Part shown: positions 997 through 50,564 of the stretch, one piece after another
Numbering within the stretch: the first letter of the stretch is position 1
How the letters are laid out: each line of letters starts with the position of its first letter
IMG/VR virus record: IMGVR_UViG_3300027746_000016
Location: 1 to 64,000 of that record
Length of the DNA stretch: 64,000 bases
Source: a virus
Reading direction: 5' to 3' (one strand)
Program-made: the position numbers and the translations under genes
The notes under the pieces: model-generated
What the model saw: only the letters and a program-made list of their open reading frames with translations
The model's database searches: none
What the model was told of the DNA's origin: nothing

Positions 997-1416
997 ATGA
1001 AAGTTATTAAAAATTTTATAAATTATATTAATGAGTCGTCTGATTCGGATAAGAAATTAATTGACAAAATATTTCGCATATTACCGGCTAGTAGAAAAAC
1101 AGTAGATTGGGATCACCGAGGCCGACTATATCTTCCATCAGTCAATGGAGAAGATTCAAAGGTTCATATTTTATCAAGAGCAGATATGTCGGACTGGGAA
1201 TCTGAGTTTATGGAAATGTATGGCGAAACTCCTAGATATAAAGTAGAATTAACTGATAAAGATCTAGACTATAATGACTTTCACCACATTAATGATGTTC
1301 AGTCAGTTAAGATTGAAATTACAAATGAAATTTTTAAAGAAAAAAAGGACCGTTTTTCAAGAGGTAAAAGCAAATTTTTAAATGATCCAGATTTTCCAAA
1401 TTCTTCAAAAGATTAA
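997..1416 (+). CDS. Putative head-cargo protein of unknown function with capsid-targeting-like N-terminus
   Basis: This 139-residue protein has no recognised domain. Its first 13 residues, MKVIKNFINYINE followed by S, match a peptide found on many proteins in this window. They also resemble the T4 internal-protein targeting peptide MKTYQEFIAE, which the prohead protease cuts after E. The rest is charged, with mixed alpha/beta character and a Lys/Arg/Ser-rich tail. It ends three bases before the large ligase fusion, so the two are probably co-expressed. Packaging in the head is an inference from the N-terminus. Confidence 0.6.
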   Translation: MKVIKNFINYINESSDSDKKLIDKIFRILPASRKTVDWDHRGRLYLPSVNGEDSKVHILSRADMSDWESEFMEMYGETPRYKVELTDKDLDYNDFHHINDVQSVKIEITNEIFKEKKDRFSRGKSKFLNDPDFPNSSKD

Positions 1417-1419
1417 ATT

Positions 1420-4400
1420 ATGGCAGGACTATCACACTTAAGAGACGTTTATGATAAGCGAGGTAAGGACTTTTTAGAAGGCTTACTAAATAAAACGGTT
1501 ATTGTAAATGAAAAAATGGATGGAGCATTTTTTGGTGCTCAAAAAAATCCTGAAACTAATAAATTTAAATACTTTAAAAGAAATGCGGAAATTACGCATA
1601 TTGACCGGGTGCTTAGTAAATACTATGAGCCTGCGATTAAACATTTTGATGGGCTTGACTCTAATACAGTTTCACAAATTCCAAACAATTACCATTTTGG
1701 TATGGAATGGTTTACCAGCCCAAAGGCTCAAACTATTGCATACGATAGACTTCCAAAAAATGGCTTGATACTTAGTTATATTCATATATTAGATGAATCG
1801 GGCCAAATATCAGAGACCGTTCAAGATAAAGAAACTCTTGATAAATGGGCCGGTATTTTAAATATTGAACCACCGCCAATTGTATTTCAGGGTAAATTAA
1901 CCGATTTTCAAAAAGAAAAAGTTCAAGAATTTATCTACACTCCGTTTTCTGAATTGGTTGATCGATTTAAAACAACATCATTTACTAAATATATTATATC
2001 GGTATTAAATCCTGAGATGGGAGCCTCTTTTCTTAGGGATACGCTAGACCAAGATATTGAAGGTTTGGTATTTAGATTTTACGATCCAAAAAATAAATCT
2101 GAGGATTCTGTATTTTTAGCTAAATTGGTAGATCCAGTATTTCAGGCAAATGCAAAACAAAAAGCACAAGACCGGGTTCAAAAAAAATCAGATGACTATA
2201 TTTGGATTATTGTAATTGACTTAATGAATTTTATTGAGAGAAATTCAGTTAGTGAGCTTAGATCAATAAAGCTATCTGGTAAGTCGTATGAAGAGCGCTA
2301 TATTTCATTGGTTAATCATATTTATTTAAATTTTATTTCTGAGTTTGGAGAAAAATACACAGATTTAGATATTCAAATTCCTGAGTTTTTACAGAGAGAA
2401 GAATTTGGTGTTAATTTTAAAATGATTAATAATAATAAGGTTACTAAAATACTTGAATCAAATCATAATTTTAAAGAAATTTACCGAATTTTCTTAAATA
2501 TCTTTAGAAAAAAGTCAGTACGCGTTAGCTCAACATTCTTTACTAAAGAGATGCGAGCCAACTTAGTTTCTCAAATTAATAAACTAAGTAATGTAATACT
2601 AGGAGATTCAGTTTTTGAAAATTATTTTCCAACCTTTGGCGAATTTGTAGGAGAAGATAAAGATCCTGGATATTTTGAAAGTTATGCAGAAATTCCTGAG
2701 GAGAAAAAAAAAGCCAAACGGGTAAACGTAATAATTTCTGACTTTCAACCAATTCACCCAGGCCATATTAAGTCTGCACAAAAGTTATTTGATACAAACG
2801 GTCTGCCGTGTCTATTTGCATGCATTCATAGTGGATCAACAAATAAGTCTAAACCATTTAAAAAAGAAACAGTTTCTAATATTTTAGCTAAATTGGTAAA
2901 TCAACACCCAAGTTTTATTACAGGTTGGGTAATAGTATCTGATAATGAAGTTGAGAATCTGTTAAGAGAAATTAAACCTGCATATGATCCAGTTATTGTA
3001 GCTGCATCTAAGAATAGAATAAAAGATATTGCTCTACAGTTAGAATTAGCAAGAAAAAGGTCACGAAATTTAAATTTTAAAAAGGATTTGAAATTAATTG
3101 AATTGCCACCAGCCGGCCTAAAAGATTCAATTATGAAACACATTAAAAATCAAGACTATCTTAATTTTAAAGTAGATGCCCCAAATGAAATTCATTCTGA
3201 GTTTTTTAATATGAATAGGGATATGAATGAGTCTGTAAATGAAGCAGTTGAGGCAAGCTTTGCAAATGAAGGTCCTCAGTCAGACGAGTCAATTGCTGAC
3301 GTTGTTAAAAAACTTACTGATCTAAAAGAAACGCGCCCTGCTCAATATCCTGAATTAATTAATTTAATTAACCGAAGAATCGATGCGTTAACTATGGATA
3401 CACGTGAGCTAATTATTAAAGAAATTATAGCCCGACAATATAATAAAGTTGATTCAGATAAATTTTATAGCACGCTACTAGATACGTCAGTGCCGGTATC
3501 TGATATTAAGTCATTTAGCGAGTATATACAAAATGGTGGAGGTTATGATTTAAAAGATGAGATTGATAAAGATAAGACTATTATATTAGAAGCTAGCAAT
3601 TTTAAAGCTAGCAATTTTGAAATGTCAGAAGATATGTTTAGAGAAATTATTAGTTATAAGCTAATAGGCGAAACAGGAAAAGGCGAATTATCTGCTATTT
3701 TATTTAAGACTGGAAAAAAGCAAAGTGTGGCAGGTGATATTAATATAAATGAGAAAAAAATTGAAGTAAAGGCATACGATGGAAAGCTTCAAAATACTTC
3801 AGTCGGTAATAATTATGCAGATGCAAGCAGTAATGTGATGGGTGTCAAATTAGAAGAACTTAAAGACCTAATTAAGGAGGCTGCTGCGACTACGGTAATT
3901 GATGCCACTGCCGGCCTGGATGAACTTACTGCGCAAGTAGATGAGGAGAAAAAAGAAATTAATCTGAGCTCGATTACATCGAAAGATTTAAATATTGGTA
4001 CTACAAAGTTAAGAGAGAGTTGGTTAACACTAAAAAACATTGCTAGTGAGAGCGGTCTTTCTGATATTAAATTTGCTGAGTGGTTTGCCGGTATATTTTA
4101 TGGAGGAATTTGGAAAACCGAAACCGGTTATAGCCCGGTTTTAGTGACTCAACTTAAAAAAGAAACTGAAGATTATTTTGGAAAAAACACCCGCACTAAG
4201 GAGGAGGCTCAAAGTTTTTTAAATAAATTAGGGTGGCACTCTTTACGATATTATCAAAAATGTGATAACTTTGATAAATTATTATATGTAAATATTAATA
4301 ATAAAGAAAATAGTATTATTATTTATGATCCGCTGAAGGCTACTGAATCTGAATTTAGTGAAAGGTTTAGAATTTTAAATGGTCCAAGCTGGACAGATGC

Positions 4401-4461
4401 CCGAAGTAATAGCAGTTTTAGATTAAGAGCTAAATCCGAACCATCCGAACCATCTATCTAA
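1420..4461 (+). CDS. Three-domain nucleic-acid ligase / HIGH-type nucleotidyltransferase / PD-(D/E)XK-like nuclease fusion
   Basis: This is a 1013-residue fusion. Residues ~1-250 form a covalent nucleotidyltransferase (RNA/DNA ligase) domain: KMDG with the AMP-accepting lysine at K32, then GMEWF, EGLVFRF and a later FLAKL as motifs III to V. Residues ~435-580 form an NMNAT/cytidylyltransferase-type Rossmann domain with FQPIHPGH (H446-P-G-H449). Residues ~740-830 carry E756, GD773I and E782-V-K784, the spacing of a PD-(D/E)XK nuclease core. The last ~180 residues are unassigned. A short tandem repeat encodes ASNFK/ASNFE near residues 728-737. The ligase and HPGH motifs are clear; the nuclease call is weaker. 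Ligase-NMNAT pairs suggest coupled NAD/RNA-end chemistry. The gene sits among putative head-cargo genes and follows a kinase-like and a HAD-like gene. Confidence 0.8.
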   Translation: MAGLSHLRDVYDKRGKDFLEGLLNKTVIVNEKMDGAFFGAQKNPETNKFKYFKRNAEITHIDRVLSKYYEPAIKHFDGLDSNTVSQIPNNYHFGMEWFTSPKAQTIAYDRLPKNGLILSYIHILDESGQISETVQDKETLDKWAGILNIEPPPIVFQGKLTDFQKEKVQEFIYTPFSELVDRFKTTSFTKYIISVLNPEMGASFLRDTLDQDIEGLVFRFYDPKNKSEDSVFLAKLVDPVFQANAKQKAQDRVQKKSDDYIWIIVIDLMNFIERNSVSELRSIKLSGKSYEERYISLVNHIYLNFISEFGEKYTDLDIQIPEFLQREEFGVNFKMINNNKVTKILESNHNFKEIYRIFLNIFRKKSVRVSSTFFTKEMRANLVSQINKLSNVILGDSVFENYFPTFGEFVGEDKDPGYFESYAEIPEEKKKAKRVNVIISDFQPIHPGHIKSAQKLFDTNGLPCLFACIHSGSTNKSKPFKKETVSNILAKLVNQHPSFITGWVIVSDNEVENLLREIKPAYDPVIVAASKNRIKDIALQLELARKRSRNLNFKKDLKLIELPPAGLKDSIMKHIKNQDYLNFKVDAPNEIHSEFFNMNRDMNESVNEAVEASFANEGPQSDESIADVVKKLTDLKETRPAQYPELINLINRRIDALTMDTRELIIKEIIARQYNKVDSDKFYSTLLDTSVPVSDIKSFSEYIQNGGGYDLKDEIDKDKTIILEASNFKASNFEMSEDMFREIISYKLIGETGKGELSAILFKTGKKQSVAGDININEKKIEVKAYDGKLQNTSVGNNYADASSNVMGVKLEELKDLIKEAAATTVIDATAGLDELTAQVDEEKKEINLSSITSKDLNIGTTKLRESWLTLKNIASESGLSDIKFAEWFAGIFYGGIWKTETGYSPVLVTQLKKETEDYFGKNTRTKEEAQSFLNKLGWHSLRYYQKCDNFDKLLYVNINNKENSIIIYDPLKATESEFSERFRILNGPSWTDARSNSSFRLRAKSEPSEPSI

Positions 4462-4480
4462 TTATTTTTGTCTTTTTCAT

Positions 4481-4490
4481 TAATAAATAA
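4481..4490 (+). promoter_or_regulatory. T4-late-like promoter element
   Basis: The sequence TAATAAATAA lies 7 bases before the ATG at 4497 and resembles the T4 late promoter box TATAAATA. If transcription starts about 5-7 bases downstream of the box, as in T4, the mRNA for the next gene would be almost leaderless. The same decamer precedes several structural genes in this window. Confidence 0.5.
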
Positions 4491-4496
4491 CATAGT

Positions 4497-4679
4497 ATGG
4501 AAAAGACTCATAAAAACGCTGAAAATTGGAGAAATGGTAAAGAGCCGTTAAGAAATGCGGTTATGCAGCATCCTGAAGGAAATGACGTATATGATTACTT
4601 GCAAAAGAATATTGAACGTAATTTCTGGGTGACCCCATTTAAATCCTGGGAAAAGCGACAAAAATTACGTAAATCATAA
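4497..4679 (+). CDS. Small protein of unknown function (60 aa)
   Basis: A short, basic, hydrophilic protein rich in Asn, Lys, Glu and Trp with no recognised domain. It follows a late-promoter-like box directly and overlaps the next gene by one base (TAATG). Tight coupling to the ferritin-like gene and the late-type promoter suggest expression late in infection, possibly as a small virion or head protein. I do not recognise its family. Confidence 0.6.
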   Translation: MEKTHKNAENWRNGKEPLRNAVMQHPEGNDVYDYLQKNIERNFWVTPFKSWEKRQKLRKS

Positions 4680-5098
4680 TGTTTGGAATGGAAGACTTAA
4701 CAGAGCCACAAGGTCAATCTGAGGTAACTATTAGCTATTTTATGCTATCTTTATTACAGATAGCTGATCAGTCAAAAATATTACATTGGCAAACAGATTA
4801 TGATACTGAACATCGTCATTTTGGACTGTTTTATGAAACCTTTATTGAGCAAATGGATACTCTAATTGAAGCTATTGCTGGTAAATACGGTAAGCATACC
4901 CTTAAATTTGGTGAAGCCGCAATTACAGTTGGAGATTATGAATTAAATCGTGACTCTTTCTTTAAACAGGTTGACTATATTTTTCGTGAAAACTTTAGTC
5001 AATTATTTGATAGAGAAACTGACTCTGAACTATATAATTTAGCGGATGAGATTTTAGATCTTAAAAATAAAGTGCAGTATTTATTGCAACTACGATAA
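4679..5098 (+). CDS. Ferritin/Dps-like four-helix protein
   Basis: This 139-residue, almost entirely helical protein has an early segment KILHWQTDYDTEHRHFGLF followed by FIEQMDTLIEAIAGKYG. This matches the Dps/ferritin-like layout in which HW and a later D/E on neighbouring helices bind iron (family pattern HWN-x-G, then D-x-x-AE). Phage homologues exist as short ferritin-like proteins of unknown role. Possible roles are DNA protection or iron handling in infected cells or in the particle. Only part of the canonical ferroxidase set is visible, so catalytic function is uncertain. It sits between a late promoter and the head-cargo genes. Confidence 0.55.
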   Translation: MFGMEDLTEPQGQSEVTISYFMLSLLQIADQSKILHWQTDYDTEHRHFGLFYETFIEQMDTLIEAIAGKYGKHTLKFGEAAITVGDYELNRDSFFKQVDYIFRENFSQLFDRETDSELYNLADEILDLKNKVQYLLQLR

Positions 5099-5099
5099 T

Positions 5100-6584
5100 A
5101 TGTTTATAAAAGTAAAACGTTTTCAGCACGTAGAGTCATTACTATTAGAGGCACAAACAATTGAGCTAAATACTAAATTTGATGCAGCAATCGCTGACTT
5201 TACCAAAAACACGGCAGCACCGGATTACACAAAATTTGATAATTTAATTGTATCCATGTTAGATTTACAAATTGAAAATCACCAAGCATTTATTAATAAG
5301 TTTGGAGAAGATAAAGCTGCTAATTTAATTACTGGCTATTTAGGATATTGTGATGCTCGGTTAAAAGCATTAACTACAAAGATTGTAACTGAATACCAGA
5401 GTGGTGTTCCAGATTTAGAAGAAATTAAAAACAATCAAGAATTGTTAGGAGTTATGAATGCTAGAATTGATAAGTTAACTACGATCTATGAAGAATTAAA
5501 GATTAGAAATCCTAGTAGTCAAATAATTGCAGGGATTACTCAAAAAATAAAAGACGTTACAAAGACTGTGGTTGACTCAATGGACTCAGTACTTTATGGA
5601 ATAAGCTTAACTGTAAAAAAAGGACAAACTGATATGGCAGCGGCCGTAACCGATGAAGAAAAGCTGAAATTTGCAAACTTAACATTTAATAAATTTAATA
5701 CATTAGTGCTATATTCAAAGAGCTTGCCTGGCAAATACCAACAAGAAATTAACAGTGCAAAGGTTGAAGCTGACAGTAACATAGAACGAGCTACGGGTAT
5801 GGATCCTAATCAACTATCACAAGCTATTAACTTGACTGGAGAAATTAAACTGAAAATTGCTAAACTCCAAATGACTAATTGGAAAACAGTTGAGGAACTT
5901 GAACTTGAGTATGAACAAATTAAGAGTCAAATTAATTCGTTAAAAGGAACAGGTGCTGAACCTAATATTGAAATTTTAACTGAGCAATTAGAGATTGATG
6001 TTAATATTATTCGTGAAAAAATAAAAGATAAATCGCTTGATCTAGATAAAACCAAAGGAATTCATTTTGATTTTAATATAAAATTAAAATTATATGAAAA
6101 AACAGTGTTACCGGTAACCGGTCAACAAATTGCGGATAATTCAAAAATTACTAAATTTAAAAACGCGCTAGTCTCATTTCTTTCATTTCTTGGAACACCA
6201 GAACCATATACTCCACGCGAGCAAGCATTGTCTAATCTAGGAAAGAAAATACATGATACCTATGCAAAGGTTTTAAATACATCGGCTAAGTTTATTGGAA
6301 AAGCACTAGGCGGTAAAGAAGGAAAATTAAAGGCTGACGGTCTCTCTAGAATTTTTATTCCTAACACCGACGTATTAGATAAAAAACCGGTAGCTGAAGA
6401 ATTAGGAGCAGGTTCAGCTCCAGGATTAAGCGTACAGGTGCCGGGCTCAATTGGTTCAATGGGGCCAATTACTCCGCCTACCCAAACAACATTTGGTTCA
6501 GGAGATAATTTTTCACCAAAAAAGAAAAAATCCAAGTCTAAAATTCTTGGATTTAGTGAATACTTAAAAGAGAATAAATTTTAA
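5100..6584 (+). CDS. Coiled-coil head protein with targeting-like N-terminus and a capsid-protein-like C-terminal segment
   Basis: This 494-residue, mostly helical protein is Lys/Glu-rich and likely coiled-coil. Its start, MFIKVKRFQHVESLLLE followed by A, resembles a capsid-targeting/protease-cleavage peptide. Residues ~435-475 repeat a pattern also present near the N-terminus of the major capsid protein: GSAPGLxxQxPGSIxSxG, then a Pro/Thr stretch, then GSGDxF. The extreme C-terminus, ILGFSEYLKENKF, is a second targeting-like peptide. Candidate roles are an accessory scaffold, an internal core protein, or a capsid-associated protein sharing an assembly interface with the capsid protein. It has no enzyme motif that I recognise. 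Confidence 0.6.
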   Translation: MFIKVKRFQHVESLLLEAQTIELNTKFDAAIADFTKNTAAPDYTKFDNLIVSMLDLQIENHQAFINKFGEDKAANLITGYLGYCDARLKALTTKIVTEYQSGVPDLEEIKNNQELLGVMNARIDKLTTIYEELKIRNPSSQIIAGITQKIKDVTKTVVDSMDSVLYGISLTVKKGQTDMAAAVTDEEKLKFANLTFNKFNTLVLYSKSLPGKYQQEINSAKVEADSNIERATGMDPNQLSQAINLTGEIKLKIAKLQMTNWKTVEELELEYEQIKSQINSLKGTGAEPNIEILTEQLEIDVNIIREKIKDKSLDLDKTKGIHFDFNIKLKLYEKTVLPVTGQQIADNSKITKFKNALVSFLSFLGTPEPYTPREQALSNLGKKIHDTYAKVLNTSAKFIGKALGGKEGKLKADGLSRIFIPNTDVLDKKPVAEELGAGSAPGLSVQVPGSIGSMGPITPPTQTTFGSGDNFSPKKKKSKSKILGFSEYLKENKF

Positions 6585-6599
6585 AAAATAATAATAATA

Positions 6600-7052
6600 A
6601 TGAAAAATTTAATAAAAACATTTGAATCATTTGATCATAATTCCAAATTAGGAAATATTGAAATTGAGCAAGAATCACATCATGAAGTTAATCACTACAT
6701 GTTTTTTGGTAATCTTGAAACAATTAAGAGATATGTTGATGCAATGTTAGAAATGGATCCTGTTACAGTTAACGAATTATTAGATAATGGTCATGATTGG
6801 GCAGCCGATCATATTGCAACATCAAAGGATGATATTGAAGAGGTTGCAAATTTCCTTATGAATAAAATGCACGAGTCACCTGATTCAGAAGATGAAATGT
6901 TTGAATATGATGAATCCTATGAATCCGATAAATACGTTGGTGAGAAATACTCATGTAATGAGTGCGGTATGACTTATGACGGCAGTATGTATGAAGACAG
7001 TGAACCGACTTCAGTATGCGAAGCTTGTGGAGGTAGAGTTACACGAATGTAA
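6600..7052 (+). CDS. Acidic phage protein with C-terminal zinc ribbon
   Basis: This 150-residue acidic protein has an N-terminus, MKNLIKTFESF, that is a variant of the recurrent targeting-like peptide. The centre is helical (HYMFFGNLETIKRYVDAMLE). The C-terminal ~35 residues form a zinc ribbon with two Cys knuckles, CNEC and CEAC, about 24 residues apart. The ribbon suggests nucleic-acid or protein binding. The leader is a plain A/T run (AATAATAATAATG), typical of translation starts in this genome. Specific function unknown. Confidence 0.6.
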   Translation: MKNLIKTFESFDHNSKLGNIEIEQESHHEVNHYMFFGNLETIKRYVDAMLEMDPVTVNELLDNGHDWAADHIATSKDDIEEVANFLMNKMHESPDSEDEMFEYDESYESDKYVGEKYSCNECGMTYDGSMYEDSEPTSVCEACGGRVTRM

Positions 7053-7058
7053 TTAGCT

Positions 7059-7613
7059 ATGATAAATCCCCGTATAATTTCTGAAAATTTAAAGTACCAT
7101 ATAGAGCGTGGAATGTCAGTGGCCGAGTCTATTTTTAGACCAGGCAGTACTGCACATATTCAGCTATTAGTTGAGGCTCGTAGTCAATTTGACGCTGGTG
7201 AAATGAATTTTACTGGAGTTGATACAATTTTATTTATTGAAACTGATCTAGGTAAAACTGATATTTTTAATGGTAAAATAGTTGCACTCGATTTTCCAAT
7301 TGAAGAATTTGAGTTATATGAGGCACAGTATCATGGAAAAGAGGTTAGGTTAGGATATCCGCAACGAGGCGGAGCAAAAAAATATCACGTTTTTGTAAAA
7401 GACCCAGCCTCTGGTAAAGTTAAAAAGATTGCCTTTGGTGATGTACACGGTGGATTAACTGCAAAAGTAAGTAATCCCAAAGCCAGAGCCTCTTTTGCTG
7501 CGCGTCATCAGTGTCATCTTAAAAAAGATAAAACAAAAGCTGGGTACTGGGCATGTAGAAGTAACAGATATGCTCATTTATGGGGAGGTAAAACCTATCC
7601 TGGATTCTGGTAA
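7059..7613 (+). CDS. Conserved-type phage protein of unknown function, head-cargo candidate
   Basis: This 184-residue protein ends in a distinctive domain containing KYHVFVKDP, FGDVHGG, NPKARASFAARHQC and AGYWACRSNRY. The Cys, His and Trp residues suggest a small metal-stabilised fold. I have the impression of similar domains in large T4-like phages, but I cannot name a function. Residues ~30-42 include HIQLLVE followed by A, compatible with the putative head-protease site (hydrophobic-x-E/A). It lies in the run of head-cargo candidates. Confidence 0.6.
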   Translation: MINPRIISENLKYHIERGMSVAESIFRPGSTAHIQLLVEARSQFDAGEMNFTGVDTILFIETDLGKTDIFNGKIVALDFPIEEFELYEAQYHGKEVRLGYPQRGGAKKYHVFVKDPASGKVKKIAFGDVHGGLTAKVSNPKARASFAARHQCHLKKDKTKAGYWACRSNRYAHLWGGKTYPGFW

Positions 7614-7630
7614 AAATAAAATAGAATAGT

Positions 7631-8422
7631 ATGAACTACCGACACACATTTGAAAGCAACAAAGATAAAAGTTTAGTAAGAGCAATTGCTGAAGACCTAC
7701 TTCCATATATACAAAAGATTAAAGATGAAACTGGAATCTATACAGTAGGTGAGTTTGAAAACTTAATGAGTGGCCGCGGCGGGGATATGGGATTAACTGA
7801 TGAAGTTATTTCAGAACTAGTAGATATGGGATTTGAATTTGATGAGGACCAGGATTCAGCAGGTTCTGAACCAGATAGTTTCGAAGGATATCCTGGAATA
7901 AAATATAGTCTAAATGAAAAAGGGACTAAATTAAGTGATAAAAAGAGTCCATACTTTAAAGGTTTAAACCCTGATCAAAAATCTAAAAAACAGGCTCAAA
8001 TGAAGCGTCAAGCTAAAATGAGTGATTCAGATTCAACTGCATATAAACCAATGGCTGGAGACCTAGATAAAAAAGGTAAGTTTAAAGGTTCAAAAGTTAA
8101 GAGCTCATATACTAAAGAGGTTAACCGTGATCTATCTGAAACTAAAGTTTTTAAATTTACAGAATGGATGCAAGTTAATGAATCAGGTCCAGCAGATACC
8201 TCATTAAAGGCAAAGGCCAAAAAATATAAAATGCCATTTGGTATATTAAAACAGGTATTTAATAGAGGCATGGCTGCCTGGAAAACAGGTCACCGACCTG
8301 GTCAAAGTCAACAGGCTTGGGCACATGCCCGAGTAAATTCGTTTGTTACAAGGTCAAGTGGAACTTGGGGCAAGGCGGATAAAGATTTAGCTCAAAAGGT
8401 AAGAGCATCCAAGAAAAAGTAA
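7631..8422 (+). CDS. Phage protein with C-terminal DUF5824-like domain and internal targeting-like peptide
   Basis: A 263-residue protein. The N-terminal ~80 residues are acidic and helical, followed by a Lys-rich linker. A peptide VFKFTEWMQVNE followed by S (~residues 175-187) matches the recurrent targeting/cleavage pattern. The C-terminal ~70 residues (KMPFGILKQV, RGMAAWKTGHRPGQ, WAHARVNSF) match a small basic domain I recall from large phages, probably DUF5824, of unknown function. If the prohead protease cuts after the internal E, the basic C-terminal domain would be released inside the head, where it could bind DNA. That last step is inference. Confidence 0.65.
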   Translation: MNYRHTFESNKDKSLVRAIAEDLLPYIQKIKDETGIYTVGEFENLMSGRGGDMGLTDEVISELVDMGFEFDEDQDSAGSEPDSFEGYPGIKYSLNEKGTKLSDKKSPYFKGLNPDQKSKKQAQMKRQAKMSDSDSTAYKPMAGDLDKKGKFKGSKVKSSYTKEVNRDLSETKVFKFTEWMQVNESGPADTSLKAKAKKYKMPFGILKQVFNRGMAAWKTGHRPGQSQQAWAHARVNSFVTRSSGTWGKADKDLAQKVRASKKK

Positions 8423-8431
8423 TCCATAATA

Positions 8432-9562
8432 GTGCAACACATATTACACTATATCGATTTTTTAAACGAGGCAGCAACCGAATCATTTTATCCAAATTAT
8501 TTTAATCTTCCATATGTTATTCCGGAAGATAGATTTAGAGATGGATTATTAAAAAATATAGATAGTCGTAAGGGAAAATCATTAACTAAACGAAACATTT
8601 CGTTAGATCGTGCTACATATCCAAATAAAGAAGCTTTCTTAGATGATGCTTCAATTTCTGCAATCGAGACCGGTGTTTATTCAACGATCAATAGAGTTAT
8701 TAAATTTATTGAAAATAATCCACTTACTGGAAAAACAATTAAAGCAAAATATTTATCTAATACTTCAATTAGTGAGTATTTAGAATCAGGCCTTGATGAA
8801 GATATTAACCTTGGTACAATTGAAACAAATTTGCCATTTTTTACCTTTGACATCCGAGTTGACTATGATATTTATAAAAATATTCCAGTTTTTACTTTTT
8901 GGGCAGATGGAGATCTTTTTTATTACTACACAATTTTTACATTGGAACCAAATGATGTTCTTGGTTCAGGAGAATTTCATACATATATTACGGCTGACGA
9001 ATTTATTAATAGCCTATTTTATGAGACTGTTTGGCGAGCAGCAATATCTGAGATATATGAAACAAATTATGAAATTTTTGAAAAACTAGGTTTTTCAGAA
9101 TCAACATATGAAATAGCAAGTAATTATAATTATCCTAGTAAAATAACAAATAATTATTTTAATAAAAAATTTGTAAGCCTATTAAAAACCTGGATATCTT
9201 CTGGCAACCTAGTATCTACAAATGGTAAACCGCCTATATTTGACGCACACACAGCAATTCCATCCTTTGCATTAATGAGTATGCCTGGAGAATTTGGAAA
9301 ACTTGTTAAAACTCAACCTGGACCGACTCAAAATAATTATACAATTCGACTACTACCAATTGATCAAAATAAATATTTAGCTCTTAAATTTATATTTAAT
9401 AATAACTATCTAATATCTATTGAATCTGCTAATTATTCTACTGGTTTTGATTGGGATTCAATTATATGGGAACCTTTATCTCAACACGAAGTAAATAAAT
9501 TATATTTTATTGACAATAACACCGGAAAAGCTATGTATATACAAAAATTTATGAAATCTTAA
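8432..9562 (+). CDS. Unknown head-cargo candidate with GTG start
   Basis: A 376-residue protein starting with GTG at 8432. The first 13 residues, MQHILHYIDFLNE followed by A, fit the targeting/cleavage peptide and support this start. The remainder is rich in Phe, Tyr, Asn and Ile with no motif I recognise; it looks like a mixed alpha/beta globular protein. It is separated from its neighbours by only a few bases on each side. Function unknown. Its N-terminus groups it with the other proteins proposed to be packaged in the capsid. Confidence 0.6.
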   Translation: MQHILHYIDFLNEAATESFYPNYFNLPYVIPEDRFRDGLLKNIDSRKGKSLTKRNISLDRATYPNKEAFLDDASISAIETGVYSTINRVIKFIENNPLTGKTIKAKYLSNTSISEYLESGLDEDINLGTIETNLPFFTFDIRVDYDIYKNIPVFTFWADGDLFYYYTIFTLEPNDVLGSGEFHTYITADEFINSLFYETVWRAAISEIYETNYEIFEKLGFSESTYEIASNYNYPSKITNNYFNKKFVSLLKTWISSGNLVSTNGKPPIFDAHTAIPSFALMSMPGEFGKLVKTQPGPTQNNYTIRLLPIDQNKYLALKFIFNNNYLISIESANYSTGFDWDSIIWEPLSQHEVNKLYFIDNNTGKAMYIQKFMKS

Positions 9563-9563
9563 T

Positions 9564-10424
9564 ATGAAATATTTAAAAACATATCAATTATTTGAAAATA
9601 TTACAAGTGAAAAATTATATCACGGTAATAGAAAAGGCGATTTTCCGCCTACTATCAAAAAATTTGGTGCTATATTTTTAACCAGTAACTTAAATTTTGC
9701 AAAATCGTTTGCAGCACAAGATCAAGATGAGAGAGAAGAGTTTCCAGATGGAGGAGTTTGGGAAGTAAACTTAAAACCTAATCTAAAAATTTGTGAACCC
9801 AGCCAAATAGAAACAATGAAGGAATTGGATTTAAAATCAATATTACAAAAAATGATAGATGATGAATATGTAGATCCAGTAAATGGTAAAAAATTCAAAT
9901 CAGATAGAGGCAAAGAATACAAAGGATTTGATTATGATACCGAAAAAGAATTTGACTTAGAAGATACCTCACAGACTGTTTATTATTATCTTAGGCAAAT
10001 AAAGTATGGCGGTTGGCTGATAATAGAGTGCCAACCTATCATTAATGCAATTAAGGATAGACAATACGATGGGTATGAGGTTACTGAATTAGGTTCTAAA
10101 AATGTAGCAATATTTGAAGAGTCATCAATTGAAAGTTTTGATAAAATAATTACAAATAAAGATTCTTTAATTAGTGAATCAAAAAAGCCAAAAGGCTCTC
10201 CAGCCTGGCATGACTCGGATGCGCCTGATGCAAACGGTAAATTTAAAACACTTGGAATAAAGGAGCTTGCCGCCTGGTTAATAAGAACCAGAAATAAAGA
10301 TATGCAAAAGATTACAGGTAGCATTAACCAACAGGTTGTGTTTAACCGTAAAAAGAATCCAGCTTATGCAAAAAAGATGGAAAAGGTTAGAGCTGAAGTA
10401 AAACGTCAACTTGGTAAAAAATAA
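9564..10424 (+). CDS. ADP-ribosyltransferase-like head-cargo candidate
   Basis: A 286-residue protein beginning MKYLKTYQLFE followed by N, a targeting-like peptide. An ART-like pattern follows: LYHGN (H20) as the NAD-binding strand, GAIFLTSNLNFAKSFA (residues 35-50) as the second element, a strand VWEVNLKP, and SKNVAIFEESSIE near residue 180 as a possible final strand. The C-terminal ~80 residues (SPAWHDSDAPDANGKFK, LAAWLIRTR, ITGSINQQVVFNR) form a separate basic phage domain of unknown function. T4 packages the ADP-ribosyltransferase Alt in its head by an N-terminal peptide, so an analogous role is plausible. The ART fold is inferred; a catalytic Glu is not certain. Confidence 0.5.
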   Translation: MKYLKTYQLFENITSEKLYHGNRKGDFPPTIKKFGAIFLTSNLNFAKSFAAQDQDEREEFPDGGVWEVNLKPNLKICEPSQIETMKELDLKSILQKMIDDEYVDPVNGKKFKSDRGKEYKGFDYDTEKEFDLEDTSQTVYYYLRQIKYGGWLIIECQPIINAIKDRQYDGYEVTELGSKNVAIFEESSIESFDKIITNKDSLISESKKPKGSPAWHDSDAPDANGKFKTLGIKELAAWLIRTRNKDMQKITGSINQQVVFNRKKNPAYAKKMEKVRAEVKRQLGKK

Positions 10425-10430
10425 TAACCT

Positions 10431-10706
10431 ATGAGTCTGCCATTTCAAGAAACCGAGCTAGACAGTACAACCTCGATTAGGGTATTCGGTGCAGACATTG
10501 ATCCGATTGAGCTTATGTGGCACAGAGACGATGAGGCCCGCACAATTGAACCTATTAATTTTACAGATTGGCTCATACAATTAGAGAATTGTTTGCCTTT
10601 TGCAATAGATCACTCTATAAATATTAATAGACATGAATGGCACCGACTAATTAAGGGATCAGGCAGTTTAACCCTAAAAATTATAAAACATAAATATGAA
10701 ACTTAA
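10431..10706 (+). CDS. Small protein of unknown function (91 aa)
   Basis: A compact protein with IELMWHRDDEARTIEPI followed by a DWLIQLENCLPF segment and a basic C-terminus. The charged WHRDDE-R motif and the W-x-x-Q-x-E-x-x-LP pattern look like a conserved small phage beta-rich domain, but I cannot name a function. It overlaps the start of the next gene by 11 bases and belongs to the same operon as the head-cargo candidates. Confidence 0.55.
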   Translation: MSLPFQETELDSTTSIRVFGADIDPIELMWHRDDEARTIEPINFTDWLIQLENCLPFAIDHSININRHEWHRLIKGSGSLTLKIIKHKYET

Positions 10707-11073
10707 TATTGGCGATAAGGTTATTTTTCGAGCCAGTGCCGAGGAGCAACAAAATGCACTATTTGAATTAATAGATGGAGCATCAGCTACGGTAACTGAA
10801 GTTGACTCGCCAATTTATGCACCGCATATTAAGTTTGTTGAGATAAAATTAGATGAACCAGTTGAACTTAACGGAGAAATGATTAAAATAGTTACTGGCT
10901 TAGACCCAGATAATATTGAAAAATTAGATGCAGTATCTGAATCTAAATTGGCCAGAAATAAAGATAAAAAGTCTTTAAAAATAAAGAAAAAATCGGACCG
11001 TAGGCTAATTTCTGAATTAAATGAACTTGCTGTCTATAAATTTAGTGATTGGGAATTAACTAAACTACTTTAA
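10696..11073 (+). CDS. Small protein with SH3/KOW-like start and targeting-like C-terminus
   Basis: A 125-residue protein. Its first half (LNIGDKVIFRA, ATVTEVDSP, FVEIKLDEPV) alternates short beta strands as in SH3/KOW-like barrels. A Lys-rich linker follows, then a C-terminal VYKFSDWELTKLL resembling the recurrent F-x-x-hydrophobic peptide. Putting the peptide at the C-terminus is unusual compared with its neighbours. Function unknown; the barrel is an inference from strand pattern. Confidence 0.5.
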   Translation: MKLNIGDKVIFRASAEEQQNALFELIDGASATVTEVDSPIYAPHIKFVEIKLDEPVELNGEMIKIVTGLDPDNIEKLDAVSESKLARNKDKKSLKIKKKSDRRLISELNELAVYKFSDWELTKLL

Positions 11074-11090
11074 AATAATATAACTAGATA

Positions 11091-11564
11091 ATGATATACG
11101 CAAATTCTTTTAGTCAATTTAACGAGGCTAATTCAACCGAACCTGAAGAGCCTATTGAATTATTTTGGTATTATGGAATAGCCGACTGTCACGGCCTTGA
11201 GTCTTTTATTAAAGAACCTAATCGTGAGGTATGGACCGAAGTTGACTTTTTAAATTCAATTGGGGTATCTGATATAAGTTCAGCCAATTTAGACGATAAA
11301 AAAGCATTTAATGGTCAATTAAATATGATGCAGATGCGGTGTAGCGCAAATATGCAGAGACACCCAGTTATATACCGAGTACTAATGGAAACAGATGATG
11401 CAGATATGGTACAAGATCAACTAGACCGTGGTGACTATATTATGGGACTTAAGATTGTAAAAGCAAATTCCAAAGAGATTCAATTAGCTAGAGGAACTGG
11501 TAGAAATCTTGAAAAACAGTGGGCAAAGATTCCAAATCCTGAGTTGGATCCTATGCACGGGTAA
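11091..11564 (+). CDS. Unknown head-cargo candidate
   Basis: A 157-residue protein starting MIYANSFSQFNE followed by A, one of the clearer matches to the targeting/cleavage pattern. The body has IELFWYYGIADCHGLESFI and a QRHPVIYRVLMETDD segment and is otherwise unrecognised. It is the last gene of the first plus-strand block. It is followed by a 62-base gap that holds a late-promoter-like box. Function unknown. Confidence 0.6.
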   Translation: MIYANSFSQFNEANSTEPEEPIELFWYYGIADCHGLESFIKEPNREVWTEVDFLNSIGVSDISSANLDDKKAFNGQLNMMQMRCSANMQRHPVIYRVLMETDDADMVQDQLDRGDYIMGLKIVKANSKEIQLARGTGRNLEKQWAKIPNPELDPMHG

Positions 11565-13138: not shown

Positions 13139-13657
13139 GCTAAGTCAACCCTATCTGATAGACCAGTTGGTGAATGGCACCTAGTAGTAGGAAATCCAAT
13201 GAATCCTATTATGGTAATGGGGGATTTATTATGCAGTAAATGTGTAATGACATTTGATACAGAAATTGGTCCTGAAGACTTTCCAACTGGTGTAACCTTT
13301 AAAGTTACTCTACAACAGGGTAAACCTAGAGATAAGGTGTCAATTGAAAGAATGTTTAATTTAGGAGAAAGTCAATTGATGTCAACTAAATTAACTCCAA
13401 CCTCTAGTGAAAAGGATACATTTGGAGAGGACAATACTAAACTATTTACTGAATTAACAACTGGCACGCCAACATCAGTAGTGAAGGCTCTAGAAGCCAA
13501 TAAGTATTTTACAAACTATAGAAATAGAGTTAGGGGATCGTATGGTTATAGTGCAGCTACTGACGCTAAAGGCGAGCCAGTAACGGAACAATCGCAAGGT
13601 CAGGTTGATGATTCATTGTTATATATGTATTTTAGTAAATTACTAGATCGTCAATAA
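13139..13657 (+). CDS. C-terminal domain of the preceding tail protein, downstream of the amber codon
   Basis: This is the continuation of the 11627 frame: 20 codons from 13139 to the first ATG at 13199, then 152 more codons. The block PVGEWHLVVGNP, MNPIMVMGDLLCSK, IGPEDFPTGVTFKVTLQQGK, PRDKVSIERMFN reads as a single beta-rich domain that begins upstream of any start codon. Translation from the ATG alone would remove the first strand. I therefore treat it as part of the tail protein rather than an independent gene. It is followed by an 18-base gap and the LysM-like gene. Confidence 0.65.
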   Translation, partial: AKSTLSDRPVGEWHLVVGNPMNPIMVMGDLLCSKCVMTFDTEIGPEDFPTGVTFKVTLQQGKPRDKVSIERMFNLGESQLMSTKLTPTSSEKDTFGEDNTKLFTELTTGTPTSVVKALEANKYFTNYRNRVRGSYGYSAATDAKGEPVTEQSQGQVDDSLLYMYFSKLLDRQ

Positions 13658-27268: not shown

Positions 27269-29254
27269 TTGGCTAATACTACTATAACAAATTTAAATGC
27301 AAAAAGCTTAGGTAAAGATCAAGTTTTTATTATTGAGAAAAGCAATCAGGCATTATCAGCAACAAATACAAATGGAACAATTGTACTTGAGGGTATATGT
27401 GCAGTTTTTGGACAAAAAAATGAAAACAATCGTATTTACGAAAAACAGGAGTATTTACCTCACTTAAATTATCTAAATGAAAAAATAAGTAAAGGTCAAC
27501 TGTTTGGAGAATTAGATCATCCTCAAAGTTTTGATGTTTCTCTTAAAAATGTATCGCATGTAGTTGAAGGACTAACATATGATGAGCCTAGCAATAGTAT
27601 AAAAATTCGGCTTAAAGTATTAGATACACCGTGTGGACGTATTGCAAAAACACTAGTTGAGTCAGGGTGTACAATTTCAAGTTCATCAAGAGCAGCTGGT
27701 CAAGTTGGCGATGGTGGAAAGGTTAAGTTGCAAAAAATATTTACATATGACCTAGTTGCTGAACCAGGTTTTTCACAAGCTTCACTAAGTCAAGTATCTG
27801 AAAGTTTAAAGGGTAATTATTCATCACTATTTGAATCATTAGATACTTTAAAAATGACTTCTATCACAAATAATTTAAAAGATATATCAGAAAGCTTTAG
27901 TTTTGAAGATTCTGTTAAAATATACCAAATAAATAACTCTGATATTATAAAAACACAACAAAATAACAAAAAGCACATGGCTACTGACTTTGTAACAAAA
28001 AATGAAATGAATCAATATTCTCAATTGGTTAAGAATAAATTTCAAAAACTTCAAGAGAATATTTCAAAGAATAATACTAAATTAAGTTCATTAAATGAAA
28101 ATTCTGAAGATCCTCAAGTAACTGGTAAGTTAGTTGAATACGTTAATTATTTAGCAGGCGAAATGGAGAAAATGGTTGGATATACTAACTATTTATCAAC
28201 TATGTTAAATAAAGGAATTGACTATACTGAACATGTTGCTGAAAAGGTTAATAATGTAATTGACTATAGCGACTATTTAGCTGAAAAAGTAGAAAAGAAT
28301 ATTGGATATTCTGACTATTTAGGCGAAAAAGTTAATCAGTCTATTAATTATGGTGAGTATATTGCAGAGAATGTTGAAAAGACAATTGCCTATACTAACT
28401 ATCTTGCTGAGAACGTAGATAAAGGAATTCAATACGCTGAATATGTAGGTGAAAGTGCAGAAAAAGGAATTAAATATTCTAACTACCTTGCAGAAAACTT
28501 AGATGCAGCAATTAACTACTCTAACTATTTAGGAGAAAATTTACAGAAAGGAATAATGTATTCTGAATATATTGCTGAAACTATGAATGAAAAAATCACA
28601 TCTAATGTTGATGTTAAAGCTCGTAGATTATTATCAGACGTTAAAAAATTAAATGAAGGAGCAAATTATCAAGTTGATGAAACTTCTGGAGTTGATGATT
28701 TAACCAGTGCAGTTGATGGAATATTAACTCATATTAAATCTAATTCAGCAAATACAGTTTTAGAGAATAAGTATCCATTTCTTAAATTGTTAAGCGAATC
28801 TAATAAACAAAAATTCTATGGTTTAGATCAACCAACTAAAGCTTCAATTGTTGAAACTATGAGAGGTGCTATCTTCTTTACTGAAGGAGAAGTTATTAAT
28901 ATCATGGAAGCAGTATTAAATAAGCAAACTGAAAATACTCCAAGCTATATTAAATTTATGCCTGAAAAATATAAATCTATAGTTGAAAGTATGAATGAGG
29001 CTGAATTAAATTGGATTTCGGCACAGGCTTCAAGTCTAGTAGTAAATACTCAATATCAAGCAAAAGCATTCTGGGATTCTCGCGATCTTCGCCCGATTAC
29101 AGAAAGAATTGCTCAAGAATCAATTAATACATCAAACAATATTAACGAAAGCCACGGTAAAGAAGGTTTTGTTTCGTTAAAACAAGTAAATCAAAGCCTA
29201 AGAGGTTACTCAGATAACTACTTAGCTGCTCTACAAAGAAGAGCACAAAATTAA
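27269..29254 (+). CDS. gp21: Prohead protease (gp21-like) fused to a 14-residue-repeat scaffold
   Basis: A 661-residue protein starting at TTG. Residues ~35-200 form the prohead protease: IVLEGICAVFGQKNENNRIY, GELDHPQ with the catalytic-type His, and TISSSSRAAG with the nucleophile-type Ser, as in T4 gp21. The rest is a helical, acidic scaffold-like region with about eleven 14-residue repeats of the form YxxYLAExVxKxIx, then an Asn/Ser-rich tail. An in-frame ATG at 27977 (M237) has an A-rich leader and could start a separate scaffold. In T4 protease and scaffold are separate genes (21 and 22). Confidence 0.8.
   Translation: MANTTITNLNAKSLGKDQVFIIEKSNQALSATNTNGTIVLEGICAVFGQKNENNRIYEKQEYLPHLNYLNEKISKGQLFGELDHPQSFDVSLKNVSHVVEGLTYDEPSNSIKIRLKVLDTPCGRIAKTLVESGCTISSSSRAAGQVGDGGKVKLQKIFTYDLVAEPGFSQASLSQVSESLKGNYSSLFESLDTLKMTSITNNLKDISESFSFEDSVKIYQINNSDIIKTQQNNKKHMATDFVTKNEMNQYSQLVKNKFQKLQENISKNNTKLSSLNENSEDPQVTGKLVEYVNYLAGEMEKMVGYTNYLSTMLNKGIDYTEHVAEKVNNVIDYSDYLAEKVEKNIGYSDYLGEKVNQSINYGEYIAENVEKTIAYTNYLAENVDKGIQYAEYVGESAEKGIKYSNYLAENLDAAINYSNYLGENLQKGIMYSEYIAETMNEKITSNVDVKARRLLSDVKKLNEGANYQVDETSGVDDLTSAVDGILTHIKSNSANTVLENKYPFLKLLSESNKQKFYGLDQPTKASIVETMRGAIFFTEGEVINIMEAVLNKQTENTPSYIKFMPEKYKSIVESMNEAELNWISAQASSLVVNTQYQAKAFWDSRDLRPITERIAQESINTSNNINESHGKEGFVSLKQVNQSLRGYSDNYLAALQRRAQN
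28130..28600 (+). repeat. In-frame tandem repeat, about eleven units of 42 bp
   Basis: Units encode YSDYLAEKVEKNIG-type 14-residue blocks with a Y at positions 1 and 4 and an alternating acidic/basic face. A period of 14 equals two heptads, suited to a continuous coiled coil. DNA copies are diverged (codon choice differs between units), so this is an old protein repeat rather than a recent slippage array. Confidence 0.75.
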
Positions 29255-29274: not shown

Positions 29275-31005
29275 ATGGCAACAAAAATTTTCAAAAGATT
29301 GAACGATGCTTCAATCAAAGAAACTTGGACCCCAGTATTAGAAGGTTATGGTGCAAACGTTTCAGCTCGCCCTTGGTTAGTTGACTACGCTCACAACCAT
29401 GCAATCTTCGAAAATGCAGGTTCATTAAACGAAGGTTTAAACACAACAGGCTCAGCTCCAGGTTTGTTTTTACAACAACCAGGTTCTATCTCTTCAATCG
29501 GTGCAATTAGTTCTCCAACAAGTTCTATGACTCCTTTTACTGCAGGTACTAAAAATGGTTACGGTGCTTCTGTATCTGGTTCTGGTGATAAATTCCCAAG
29601 CCTTTTACCAGTAGCAATTCAAGTAGCTGCTAAAACAGTTGGTTTCGACCTAGTTGGTGTAGTTCCGATGGATTCTCCAGTAGGTTTCTTACCTTATTTG
29701 GATTATGTATACCAAGGTGGTAATACTGATACTCAGTACGAACCATTCTTAGTTAAACTATCAAGTGCTCTTAATACAGCAATTGTAGCTGGACAATATA
29801 TTCAAGCCTTAACTGGTGCTGCTAACGGTGTTGGTGCATTTAAATTTCAATTTGTTGGAAAATCTCGTATAGACGGTTTACCAATACTTAAAGTAATAAC
29901 TGGAGCAACTGATTCAGTTAATACAACTACTGTAGCTACTGCGGTAACTGCATTAGATGACGCAGCTCATACTGGTACACGTACTTCACCTGACACAGGT
30001 AATGCCGCTGCAGGTACTGCAGCTGAACCATGGTTAGGTTTCGGTGGAACTGCAGGTATGACTGTTAGTTTAGTATCTGCATTAGAAAATCATATTACTG
30101 GTTTTACTTCAGTAAGCGATGATGACTATGCTGCTACTTCATTCCAAGGTCCTTTCTTAAACTCAAGTGAAAATCTTGAAATGGAAGGTATGACTCGTGC
30201 AACTGCTGAAAGTTCTAAATTCCGTCAAATGGGTCTTCGTATGTTTACGAAATTCATTGAGGCAAAAGGAGATCAAGTTGCTATTTCTGCAACAGTTGAG
30301 CAAATCCAAGATCTTAACCGAGTTTGGAATTTCGACGTAATGTCAATGTTAGAAAACGTTGCTGTTAACGAATTAGCTCAATCTATTAACAAAAAATTAA
30401 CTGATAGAGTTTTATCTTTAGGTCAAACTCATGCTACTGCAGTTAATGCAGTTGAAGGTTCTGGAATTACCACTTTAAACTTAACAGTTGGAACTGGTTT
30501 TGAGAATATCTCAACTTTACAACGTCGTGTTGTTACTAAAATCCTTGAAATGGCTAACTTGATTTATCATAGAGGTCGTTTCGGTGCAGGTACATACATC
30601 GTAACAAATGGCCGTGTTGCTTCTGCTTTAGCAGATGTTGCTGGTTATACTTTCGCTCCGTTCAATAACGATTTACCTTCTGGTGCTGGTCAATTATACC
30701 CTGCTGGAAAAGTTCACGGTTTAACTGTGTATGTAGATCCAAACTTGAAATTTAGCGATAACCGTATCCATATCGGCCGTAAAGGTGCAGATGAGGAGCC
30801 AGGTGTTAAATTCTTACCGTATATCATGGCAGAGAGTCTTCAAACAATTGCAGAGGGAACTTTCTCTCCAAAAATTGGTATGAAATCTCGTTATGCAATC
30901 ACAGAAGCTGGATGGCATCCAGAAACTCAGTATATCACTATGAACGTAACAGGTCTTGGTGTATTAACTGGTTCAGTTGCTCCATCTACTGGTTACGCTG
31001 CATAA
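29275..31005 (+). CDS. gp23: Major capsid protein, gp23-like
   Basis: A 576-residue protein. It has ETWTPVLEGYG near the start (T4 gp23 has a similar W-x-P-x-LEG), then a predicted protease site LNE|G at residues 51-54. After that come LLPVAIQVAAKTVGFDLVGV and VPMDSPVGFLPYLDYVY, aligning with gp23's mature N-terminal region. The C-terminal AITEAGWHPETQYITMNVTG is typical of the fold. Codon use differs from neighbours, with many C-ending and GGT/CGT codons, as expected for the most abundant protein. Leader AATAATTTATAAAAATG shows no Shine-Dalgarno sequence. A terminator hairpin follows. Confidence 0.9.
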   Translation: MATKIFKRLNDASIKETWTPVLEGYGANVSARPWLVDYAHNHAIFENAGSLNEGLNTTGSAPGLFLQQPGSISSIGAISSPTSSMTPFTAGTKNGYGASVSGSGDKFPSLLPVAIQVAAKTVGFDLVGVVPMDSPVGFLPYLDYVYQGGNTDTQYEPFLVKLSSALNTAIVAGQYIQALTGAANGVGAFKFQFVGKSRIDGLPILKVITGATDSVNTTTVATAVTALDDAAHTGTRTSPDTGNAAAGTAAEPWLGFGGTAGMTVSLVSALENHITGFTSVSDDDYAATSFQGPFLNSSENLEMEGMTRATAESSKFRQMGLRMFTKFIEAKGDQVAISATVEQIQDLNRVWNFDVMSMLENVAVNELAQSINKKLTDRVLSLGQTHATAVNAVEGSGITTLNLTVGTGFENISTLQRRVVTKILEMANLIYHRGRFGAGTYIVTNGRVASALADVAGYTFAPFNNDLPSGAGQLYPAGKVHGLTVYVDPNLKFSDNRIHIGRKGADEEPGVKFLPYIMAESLQTIAEGTFSPKIGMKSRYAITEAGWHPETQYITMNVTGLGVLTGSVAPSTGYAA

Positions 31006-31128: not shown

Positions 31129-31488
31129 ATGAAATCAGTACTAAGCTATGAGCAATACCTGTTTGAGAAAAAATCGCATAGCGATCTTGCAACCGGTACG
31201 CCTACAAAAGGTAAATCTGTTACTAAACAGGTAAATAACAATTTAACTGCAGGTACACCAAAAGGAAAATCTGTTAAAAAATCAGTTAATTCAAGTACGT
31301 CAAGTTTACCAAAGGGTAGAGGATCTGTTCCTGGTAAATCAGTTAAGACCGGTACTTCAAGTTTACCAAAAGGTAAAGGCTCTGTTCCCGGTAAAAACGT
31401 TGACTCTAAATTTGCTAAGATAACAGTTAAAGGAAATTCAGTTAATAGGAAAGTTGATTCAGCAATGGCAAAGTTGCCAAGAAAATAA
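31129..31488 (+). CDS. Very basic low-complexity internal-head-protein candidate
   Basis: A 119-residue protein starting MKSVLSYEQYLFE followed by K, a targeting-like peptide. The remainder is Lys/Ser/Gly/Pro-rich with repeats of SLPKGKGSVPGKSVK and GTPKGKSV, and almost no hydrophobic core. A strongly basic, disordered protein next to the capsid gene with a predicted protease site fits an internal protein that neutralises packaged DNA, like T4 internal proteins. Function is inferred from composition and context. Confidence 0.6.
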   Translation: MKSVLSYEQYLFEKKSHSDLATGTPTKGKSVTKQVNNNLTAGTPKGKSVKKSVNSSTSSLPKGRGSVPGKSVKTGTSSLPKGKGSVPGKNVDSKFAKITVKGNSVNRKVDSAMAKLPRK

Positions 31489-49973: not shown

Positions 49974-50564
49974 TTAATCTTTTAAATTGGTAAAGATCTC
50001 TTCCAATACTCTAATTGTATCAGTTGAGTCATTATGAAAAACCGAGGTTCCACCGGCTGCTGCCCAATCCTCTAATTTTTTATGATTATCATCAATTAAT
50101 ATATCATTAGCTGACTTTGCAAATAGATATTTGTCTTTTGCAATAATAAGATGAGTTGTATCAGTTAACCCGTCAGGTTTTAATACGGGCTTTTCATTAA
50201 TATTTAAATTACGTTTTACCCATTCAGTTTTACCAGAGACTGAGTGTTCTCCACGACTTGGAGAAGTTAAAATAGTTGGATTATATCGGCTAAGATAGTC
50301 CCATAATTCGCGGCCGTCTTTTGTCCATGGCAGTTTTTCCCAAAATGCAGAGCCACGGTCATCAATTAGTTTCCAAATTGAGTTTTTTCCGTGTTTCTTA
50401 TCGTATTCATTAGGTGTTAAATGATCTGGATTTGACTTAAGTCGCTTGAAACCTCGTTTAAAGTCTACTAAAACTCCATCAAGGTCGCAAAATACACGTT
50501 TATCGTCTATTTTTTCCTCGGTTATGAACTGTTTAAATTTTTTAAGCATGGTCGCTGATTTCAA
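49974..50564 (-). CDS. HAD-family 5'(3')-nucleotidase-like phosphatase with targeting-like N-terminus
   Basis: A 196-residue protein. FCDLDGVLVDF is HAD motif I (DxDGV), ILTSPS the motif II strand, a Lys in the following segment motif III, and DILIDDNHKKLEDW motif IV with DD, as in NT5C-type nucleotidases. The start is MKSATMLKKFKQFITEEK, in which MLKKFKQFITE closely resembles T4 MKTYQEFIAE. Initiation could be at the first or the second Met. It overlaps the GroES gene end by 23 bases. It may be a head cargo enzyme or may act on nucleotides in the cell. Confidence 0.75.
   Translation of the reverse strand: MKSATMLKKFKQFITEEKIDDKRVFCDLDGVLVDFKRGFKRLKSNPDHLTPNEYDKKHGKNSIWKLIDDRGSAFWEKLPWTKDGRELWDYLSRYNPTILTSPSRGEHSVSGKTEWVKRNLNINEKPVLKPDGLTDTTHLIIAKDKYLFAKSANDILIDDNHKKLEDWAAAGGTSVFHNDSTDTIRVLEEIFTNLKD

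Follow-up and report, generated by a model that had tools for sequence, protein, structure and literature searches.

Between positions 997 and 11,564 of a 64-kb stretch of virus DNA (the window; positions 1 to 64,000 of the 94,965-base IMG/VR virus record IMGVR_UViG_3300027746_000016), proteins with dissimilar bodies begin with a similar short peptide, rich in phenylalanine and tyrosine and ending in glutamate. A first-pass annotation of the window likened this peptide, here called the tag, to the leader of phage T4 internal head proteins, and proposed that the tag and a gp21-family protease deliver diverse cargo into the phage head. The locus raises the question of whether the tag is genuine, whether it is confined to this block of genes, and what it does. 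We consider it highly probable, from comparison across phages, that the tags are T4-type capsid-targeting propeptides, greatly expanded in this group of giant phages. The window phage is placed in the T4 superfamily and probably infects Bacteroidetes, because its tail protein is related to proteins of Lak, PTm1, MaF61, PAU and MA9V phages, and its head protease has relatives in 462-735 kb huge-phage records, Lak phages and cyanophages. Proteins are named by the lower window coordinate of their genes (Table 1), and a slash marks the putative cut after the glutamate.

Enrichment of the N-terminal tag on unrelated proteins

The tag pattern was fixed as [FYW]xx[FYW][ILMV]xE, located in the N-terminal ~24 residues. 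It fits T4 YQEFIAE and proteins 997 and 8432 alike, and was then applied to genomes that had played no part in its choice. The shuffled controls preserve the composition of each individual N-terminus. The 95-kb record (G000) was compared with its relatives G001 (252 kb), G006 (253 kb) and G007 (131 kb), which together represent approximately one lineage, and with the complete 735-kb record LR756501, which like PAU and T4 is a separate witness. The strict tag is present on 4 of the 82 proteins of the 95-kb record (shuffle mean 0.27; none of 2000 shuffles reaches four). G001 has 15 tagged proteins among 285 (shuffle mean 0.73, maximum 4), G006 has 20 among 317 (mean 0.92, maximum 5), and G007 has five among 132 (mean 0.41). 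LR756501 carries the tag on 60 of its 969 proteins, with 4.4 expected (maximum 11 in 200 shuffles), and the count reaches 116 against 18.1 expected when two tag variants are added. Enrichment over shuffled controls was thus found and is strongest in the relatives; the case for the tag is strong once the complete relatives are counted.

Motif starts are 10.8 times denser at N-termini than internally in G000, G001, G006 and G007, and 11.8 times denser in the first 280 kb of LR756501. The corresponding ratio is 0.9 in the pooled cultured Bacteroidetes-phage controls PAU, MaF61, PTm1 and pT24. The pattern test found no convincing tags in MaF61 and only two in P-SSM2. In an unsupervised search for three-position class patterns at N-termini, F..F..E was the top pattern of both G001 and G006, and a..F.N that of LR756501. 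A seven-fold occurrence of the motif in a 1691-residue LR756501 protein was judged incidental, the protein being long and membrane-rich.

After removal of the tag, the bodies have no pairwise matches and form separate families in all cases from G000 (4/4), G001 (15/15), G006 (20/20) and G007 (5/5). The 60 tagged LR756501 proteins fall into 42 families, two of which are expanded. The bodies are therefore unrelated, as the first-pass annotation had stated. Its view of the block as a special unit did not hold: tagged genes are scattered across the genomes of relatives, and clustering in a block is therefore not a property of the tag system. The N-terminal peptide is genuine, and is a property of the whole phage group and not of the gene block.

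Gene fusions mark the glutamate as the border of a module. Protein 9564 of the window reads DSLISE/SKKPKGSPAWHD (SLISE/SKKPKGSP) where its basic C-terminal domain follows an unrelated upstream domain. In the close relative L145, the basic domain is free-standing and has its own tag, MNYLLSYTDFLITE/SKKPKGSPDWHD (FLITE/SKKPKGSP). The upstream domain is free-standing in L142, where it ends short of the joint, and VSE/KK directly precedes the basic domain in L146, G001 and G006. The sequence [IV][ST]E abuts the basic domain in five contexts, of which those in G001 and G006 are mutual orthologues, despite the changing upstream sequence. The fusions join exactly at [IV]xE/, and the glutamate is, as judged from these alignments, a functional boundary.

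On this reading, the tag is a portable module that is found on many unrelated bodies, is gained, lost and swapped among them, and has drifted into lineage-specific versions. The 8432 orthologue in L149 has NFNQYLTE/S in place of YIDFLNE/A, with a body that is approximately half identical. The slot between the orthologues of genes 371 and 1420 is occupied by a tagged gene in four of four genomes; the body of 997 has no detectable match to the other slot proteins, and those of G001 and G007 share a related C-terminus. The nucleotidase 49974 is tagged here and in three relatives, and its homologs in Atu_ph07 and Citrobacter phage CfP1 begin directly at the enzyme domain.

The T4 leader, the head protease and tags of other lineages

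The internal (Ip) proteins of T4 are packaged and injected, inhibit type IV restriction enzymes, and have the leader alone in common; T-even relatives encode at least ten such leader-bearing proteins (PMC12373910). Mutagenesis of T4 IPIII assigned residues 4 and 7 (Y4 and F7) to head targeting, and residues 8 and 10 (I8 and E10) to processing (PMC9026906). The four constrained positions of the tag coincide with these targeting and processing positions. Applied to the T4 genome, the tag test finds two internal-protein leaders (65416 and 65834, presumably IPII and IPIII, as judged by length) and gp61.1. The site in the T4 capsid protein is FGSFLTE/A.

A gp21-family protease (PHROG 207) is encoded in every genome compared, and proteases of this family work inside proheads (PMC9026906). 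The scaffold-like part of the window protease fusion contains 11 14-residue repeats YS[END]Y[LI]AE... (28139-28600). Arrays of 11-13 copies of Y[ST][END]Y[LIV]AE are present in G000, G001, G007 and LR756501, and the array of LR756500 is degenerate. The capsid prodomain site, predicted from sequence only, is LNE/G, LNE/A, LNE/S and VNE/A in four relatives. The usual tag end, [ILV]NE/[SNA], resembles this predicted capsid site, [LV]NE/[GAS].

The aromatic pair F/Y-x-x-F/Y/W, located ~5-8 residues into the protein, most likely attaches to the core of proteins inside the prohead as it grows, with the scaffold repeat as a possible binding partner of the tag. Both the comparison among genomes and the agreement with the T4 residues give good support to the first-pass proposal that a T4-like leader and a gp21-family protease would load diverse proteins into the head.

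Other lineages carry tags with different letters. PAU has no F..F tag and bears its own, MK[TS][LI]xxL[YF]E[SAN], on 22 proteins with 22 unrelated bodies (2.0 expected), and pT24 has the tag [IV]xxY[LI]xE (14 versus 1.7 expected); both enrichments are optimistic, because each pattern was counted in the genome in which it had been discovered. The tagged genes of PAU are concentrated near the portal, protease and capsid genes (e.g. 106051-113735). The depositors annotated the tagged proteins gp142 and gp154 as internal capsid proteins, and gp152 as scaffolding. The PAU capsid protein has 65 residues removed, as determined by N-terminal sequencing (PMC5646251), and this processing point lies within one residue of ALME64/N. 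Since PAU and pT24 carry their own tags, the tag letters are, in this comparison, lineage-specific, with an [aliphatic]-x-E ending that is common across lineages.

The tags resemble the T4 capsid-targeting sequence (on IPI-IPIII and Alt, cut by gp21) in being 10-19-residue N-terminal propeptides with aromatics and [LI]xE at the same spacing, in the attachment of one leader to unrelated bodies, in the presence of a gp21-family protease, and in having a capsid-protein site of the same class. They differ in that several to tens of times more proteins are tagged (15-20 in ~253 kb; 60 strict, or ~116 with variants, in 735 kb). The phage group studied here also differs from T4 in its enzyme cargo, an L-F-E tag class, separable two-part tags, lineage-specific alphabets, and a protease that continues into a scaffold region with repeats. 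As proposed for the tagged proteins here, the inner-body and ejection proteins of phiKZ and SPN3US are packaged in large numbers in the head of a giant phage and are cut after glutamate by a distant gp21 homolog (PMC5694885). Most of their propeptides are longer than 100 residues, and a short leader common to them has not been described, whereas those reported here have 10-17 residues and a common pattern. Chimalliviruses also address many phage proteins selectively, by importing them into the phage nucleus; this import uses surface features and no terminal signal (PMC13282480), whereas the phages studied here have a T4-type head and protease, with the protease site within the tag.

The kind of mechanism, a T4-type capsid-targeting leader, is already known. 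The literature searched, which did not extend to subscription journals, was not found to contain its scale, enzymes as cargo, tag alphabets particular to a lineage, a protease fusion with repeats, the copies of the capsid arm described below, or the tested tag strings. The capsid-targeting sequence is unmentioned in those parts of a 2026 jumbo-phage review that a term search reaches.

Possible scaffold mimicry, alternative roles and proposed cargo

A more specific form of the capsid-targeting explanation is that the aromatic pair of the tag copies the 14-residue scaffold repeat and takes the place of one repeat in the core. Genomes with a full array have many F/Y-x-x-F tags, and the other compared genomes have few or none. 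A BLOSUM-smoothed repeat matrix finds 45 N-termini versus 11.9 expected in the array genomes, and 28 versus 16.4 elsewhere. However, the plain repeat matrix fails to single out the tags (p=0.03 for 997 and p=0.02 for 8432), and the letters of the tag, F[TS][QED]F[IVL]NE, and of the repeat, Y[ST][END]Y[LI]AE, are alike in class and not in identity. T4 is tagged and has no array, and the array and non-array genomes differ in ancestry. Because the plain matrix failed and the smoothed matrix gave only modest enrichment, we put repeat mimicry forward as a hypothesis and not as a result, and our support for it is tentative.

The tagged proteins include enzymes. Pfam domains on the tagged proteins of G006 are phage lysozyme, CHAP and nucleotidyltransferase, and those on LR756501 tagged proteins are PPK2, radical SAM, methyltransferase and UPF0227. 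The tag is absent from SbcC, SbcD, DnaB helicase, UvsX, DNA polymerase, SSB, exonuclease, RNR and the tail sheath protein of the window phage genome. Tagged PPK2, radical SAM, methyltransferase and nucleotidase enzymes are without obvious use in a virion, and the tagged genes are spread over the genome and not grouped with head genes. Both observations would fit a leader that is processed by the protease for another role, such as holding enzymes in an inactive state or directing them to a membrane or an assembly site, with mature proteins that stay unpackaged. We regard such a role as unlikely, since the pattern equals the T4 head-targeting residues, the same site is found in the major capsid protein, gp21-family proteases act within proheads (PMC9026906), and two tagged PAU proteins are annotated as internal capsid proteins. 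A reading in which N-terminal composition, translation-start preferences or paralogous families produce the motif as a by-product is hardly conceivable and is refuted by the controls, even though K, I and F are often abundant at N-termini and two families are expanded among the LR756501 tagged proteins: composition-keeping shuffles yield 0.3-4.4 tags where 4-60 are seen, the tagged proteins of G001, G006 and G007 have unrelated bodies, and the control phages have no excess.

Several points weigh against capsid targeting. The 95-kb record alone provides four strict cases, from which the argument is modest. The counts in the four closest genomes are not independent, because these genomes are related, and open reading frames and their starts are our own calls, made without a trained gene finder. 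The tagged nucleotidase and methyltransferase would also be plausible as ordinary intracellular enzymes. Core binding, cleavage, packaging and injection are all inferred, and none of them was observed.

We lean slightly towards the view that the largest phages of the T4 superfamily use the tags for general protein delivery, in which approximately a tenth of the proteins would be tagged and, enzymes included, injected ready-made, with a tag and cut site that evolve separately in each lineage. Such delivery can be likened to the tegument of herpesviruses. From sequence, it can usually not be known which of the hundreds of unknown genes of a giant phage are active during the first minutes of infection. 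With the tag as a packaging label, the proteins that uncultured huge phages inject would become readable from the genome, including enzymes unsuspected in virions. The tag offers a test of cargo recruitment by T4-type scaffolds, and lineage-specific addresses could be used to load foreign proteins into large capsids.

The tagged lysozyme of G006 (171610-172434) is preceded by what looks by eye like an annexin-like repeat (GTDEESLVSAIRQI), and a similar repeat is present in the 204439 protein.

Tagged and neighbouring genes of the window

The open reading frames listed by the first-pass annotation are all present. Among the five proteins to which it assigned the N-terminal peptide, 997 and 8432 carry the strict tag. 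Proteins 5100 and 11091 carry real tag variants, as judged by conservation in orthologs: those of 11091 in two relatives have FKSFNE/S, and the N-terminal variant tag of the 5100 orthologs ends KRFKHIEDLLTE/A. The tag of 9564 belongs by its sequence to a second class (L-F-E), with an aliphatic residue two before the glutamate and an aromatic residue just before it, which occurs 22 times in LR756501 (1.6 expected). Tagged proteins 31129, whose tag is kept in G001 and G006, and 49974 had been overlooked. The weaker versions of the peptide claimed for 6600, 7059, 7631 and 10696 are individually not above chance; 6600 and 7631 are retained as weak candidates, and 7059 and 10696 are unsupported.

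Table 1. Tagged proteins, candidates and head genes in the window (a slash marks the putative cleavage point).
Feature	Coordinates	Strand	Details
Tagged protein	997..1416	+	Tag MKVIKNFINYINE/S at 997-1035 (FINYINE/S), strict
RNA ligase and cytidylyltransferase-like protein	1420..4461	+	Within the block; N-terminus untagged
Variant-tagged protein	5100..6584	+	N-terminal tag MFIKVKRFQHVESLLLE/A at 5100-5150 (also written KRFQHVESLLLE/A)
Weak candidate	6600..7052	+	MKNLIKTFESF; F..F pair kept in relatives, no canonical [LI]xE
Weak candidate	7631..8422	+	Internal FTEWMQVNE/S at 8156-8182, just ahead of DUF5824 domain
Tagged protein, GTG start	8432..9562	+	Tag MQHILHYIDFLNE/A at 8432-8470 (YIDFLNE/A), strict
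Two-module protein	9564..10424	+	Class II tag MKYLKTYQLFE/N at 9564-9596; N-terminal domain with unconfirmed ART-like label
Internal parts of 9564	10167-10178; 10179-10421	+	Joint LISE/S; basic C-terminal domain
Tagged protein, variant	11091..11564	+	Tag MIYANSFSQFNE/A at 11091-11126 (FSQFNE/A)
Head maturation protease fused to scaffold-like region	27269..29254	+	PHROG 207, 6.8e-34
Major capsid protein	29275..31005	+	Predicted prodomain cleavage SLNE/G, E encoded at 29431-29433
Tagged protein	31129..31488	+	Tag MKSVLSYEQYLFE/K (YEQYLFE/K), strict; directly 3' of major capsid gene
Tagged 5'-3' deoxyribonucleotidase	49974..50549	-	PHROG 2643, 5.8e-25; tag MLKKFKQFITE/E at 50517-50549 (FKQFITE/E), strict
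Two-part tag protein	53771..54322	-	Tag MRILEFKEFKNLLLE/D (EFKEFKNLLLE/D), kept in relatives

The label of 9564 as an ART-like (ADP-ribosyltransferase-like) protein could not be confirmed: the protein has no sequence match in Pfam, NCBIfam, PHROG or PDB, and its AlphaFold2 model has a predicted local distance difference test (pLDDT) score of 45 (3 sequences) and is unusable for fold comparison. The model of 8432, with a pLDDT of 52 (4 sequences), is also too poor for fold comparison. Protein 1420 had been described as a fusion of ligase and nuclease. Its RNA ligase domain was found, together with a cytidylyltransferase-like domain; a nuclease domain was not detected, and the protein is co-encoded with the tagged proteins and itself untagged at its N-terminus. 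PADLOC returned no match among ten window proteins, and a Pfam search for the portal gave no match.

Protein 5100 has a C-terminal FSEYLKE (6552-6572), which reads FSDFINQ, FSDFLKQ and FDAFVSK in three relatives, so that the aromatic pair is kept and the glutamate lost. The 5100 family also copies the capsid sequence just after the cleavage site (6408-6500 in the window, 2.9e-6; 2.4e-5 to 4.3e-4 in relatives; all E-values of capsid-arm copies are from single-proteome searches). Further copies of the capsid arm are found in T4 gp61.1 (5.8e-7), in a tagged 84-residue LR756501 protein (730457-730711; 1.4e-9), and in the PTm1 protein 216794-217627, adjoining its protease gene (2.1e-9). Across the phages compared, four or five distinct lineages have a non-capsid, usually tagged protein with such a copy of the capsid N-arm. 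We speculate that a tagged protein with such a copy may tie the cargo or core to the shell.

Homologs of neighboring genes are fused in two relatives: those of 11091 and 7059 in L146 (4998-5966), and those of 10696 and 11091 in G007 (44855-45568). By their sequences, these fusions suggest shuffling of small head modules. The open reading frames 11627-13138 and 13199-13657 correspond to one protein in G001 (671 residues), G006 and L140 (686 residues); the split may be real, or it may come from a frameshift or from an error in the assembly. An untagged DUF5856 protein within the block (4679-5098) weakly resembles starvation-inducible (Dps-like) proteins. Between the baseplate and head genes, the minus strand (18203-26242) carries approximately ten genes that appear by eye to encode sugar-modifying enzymes.

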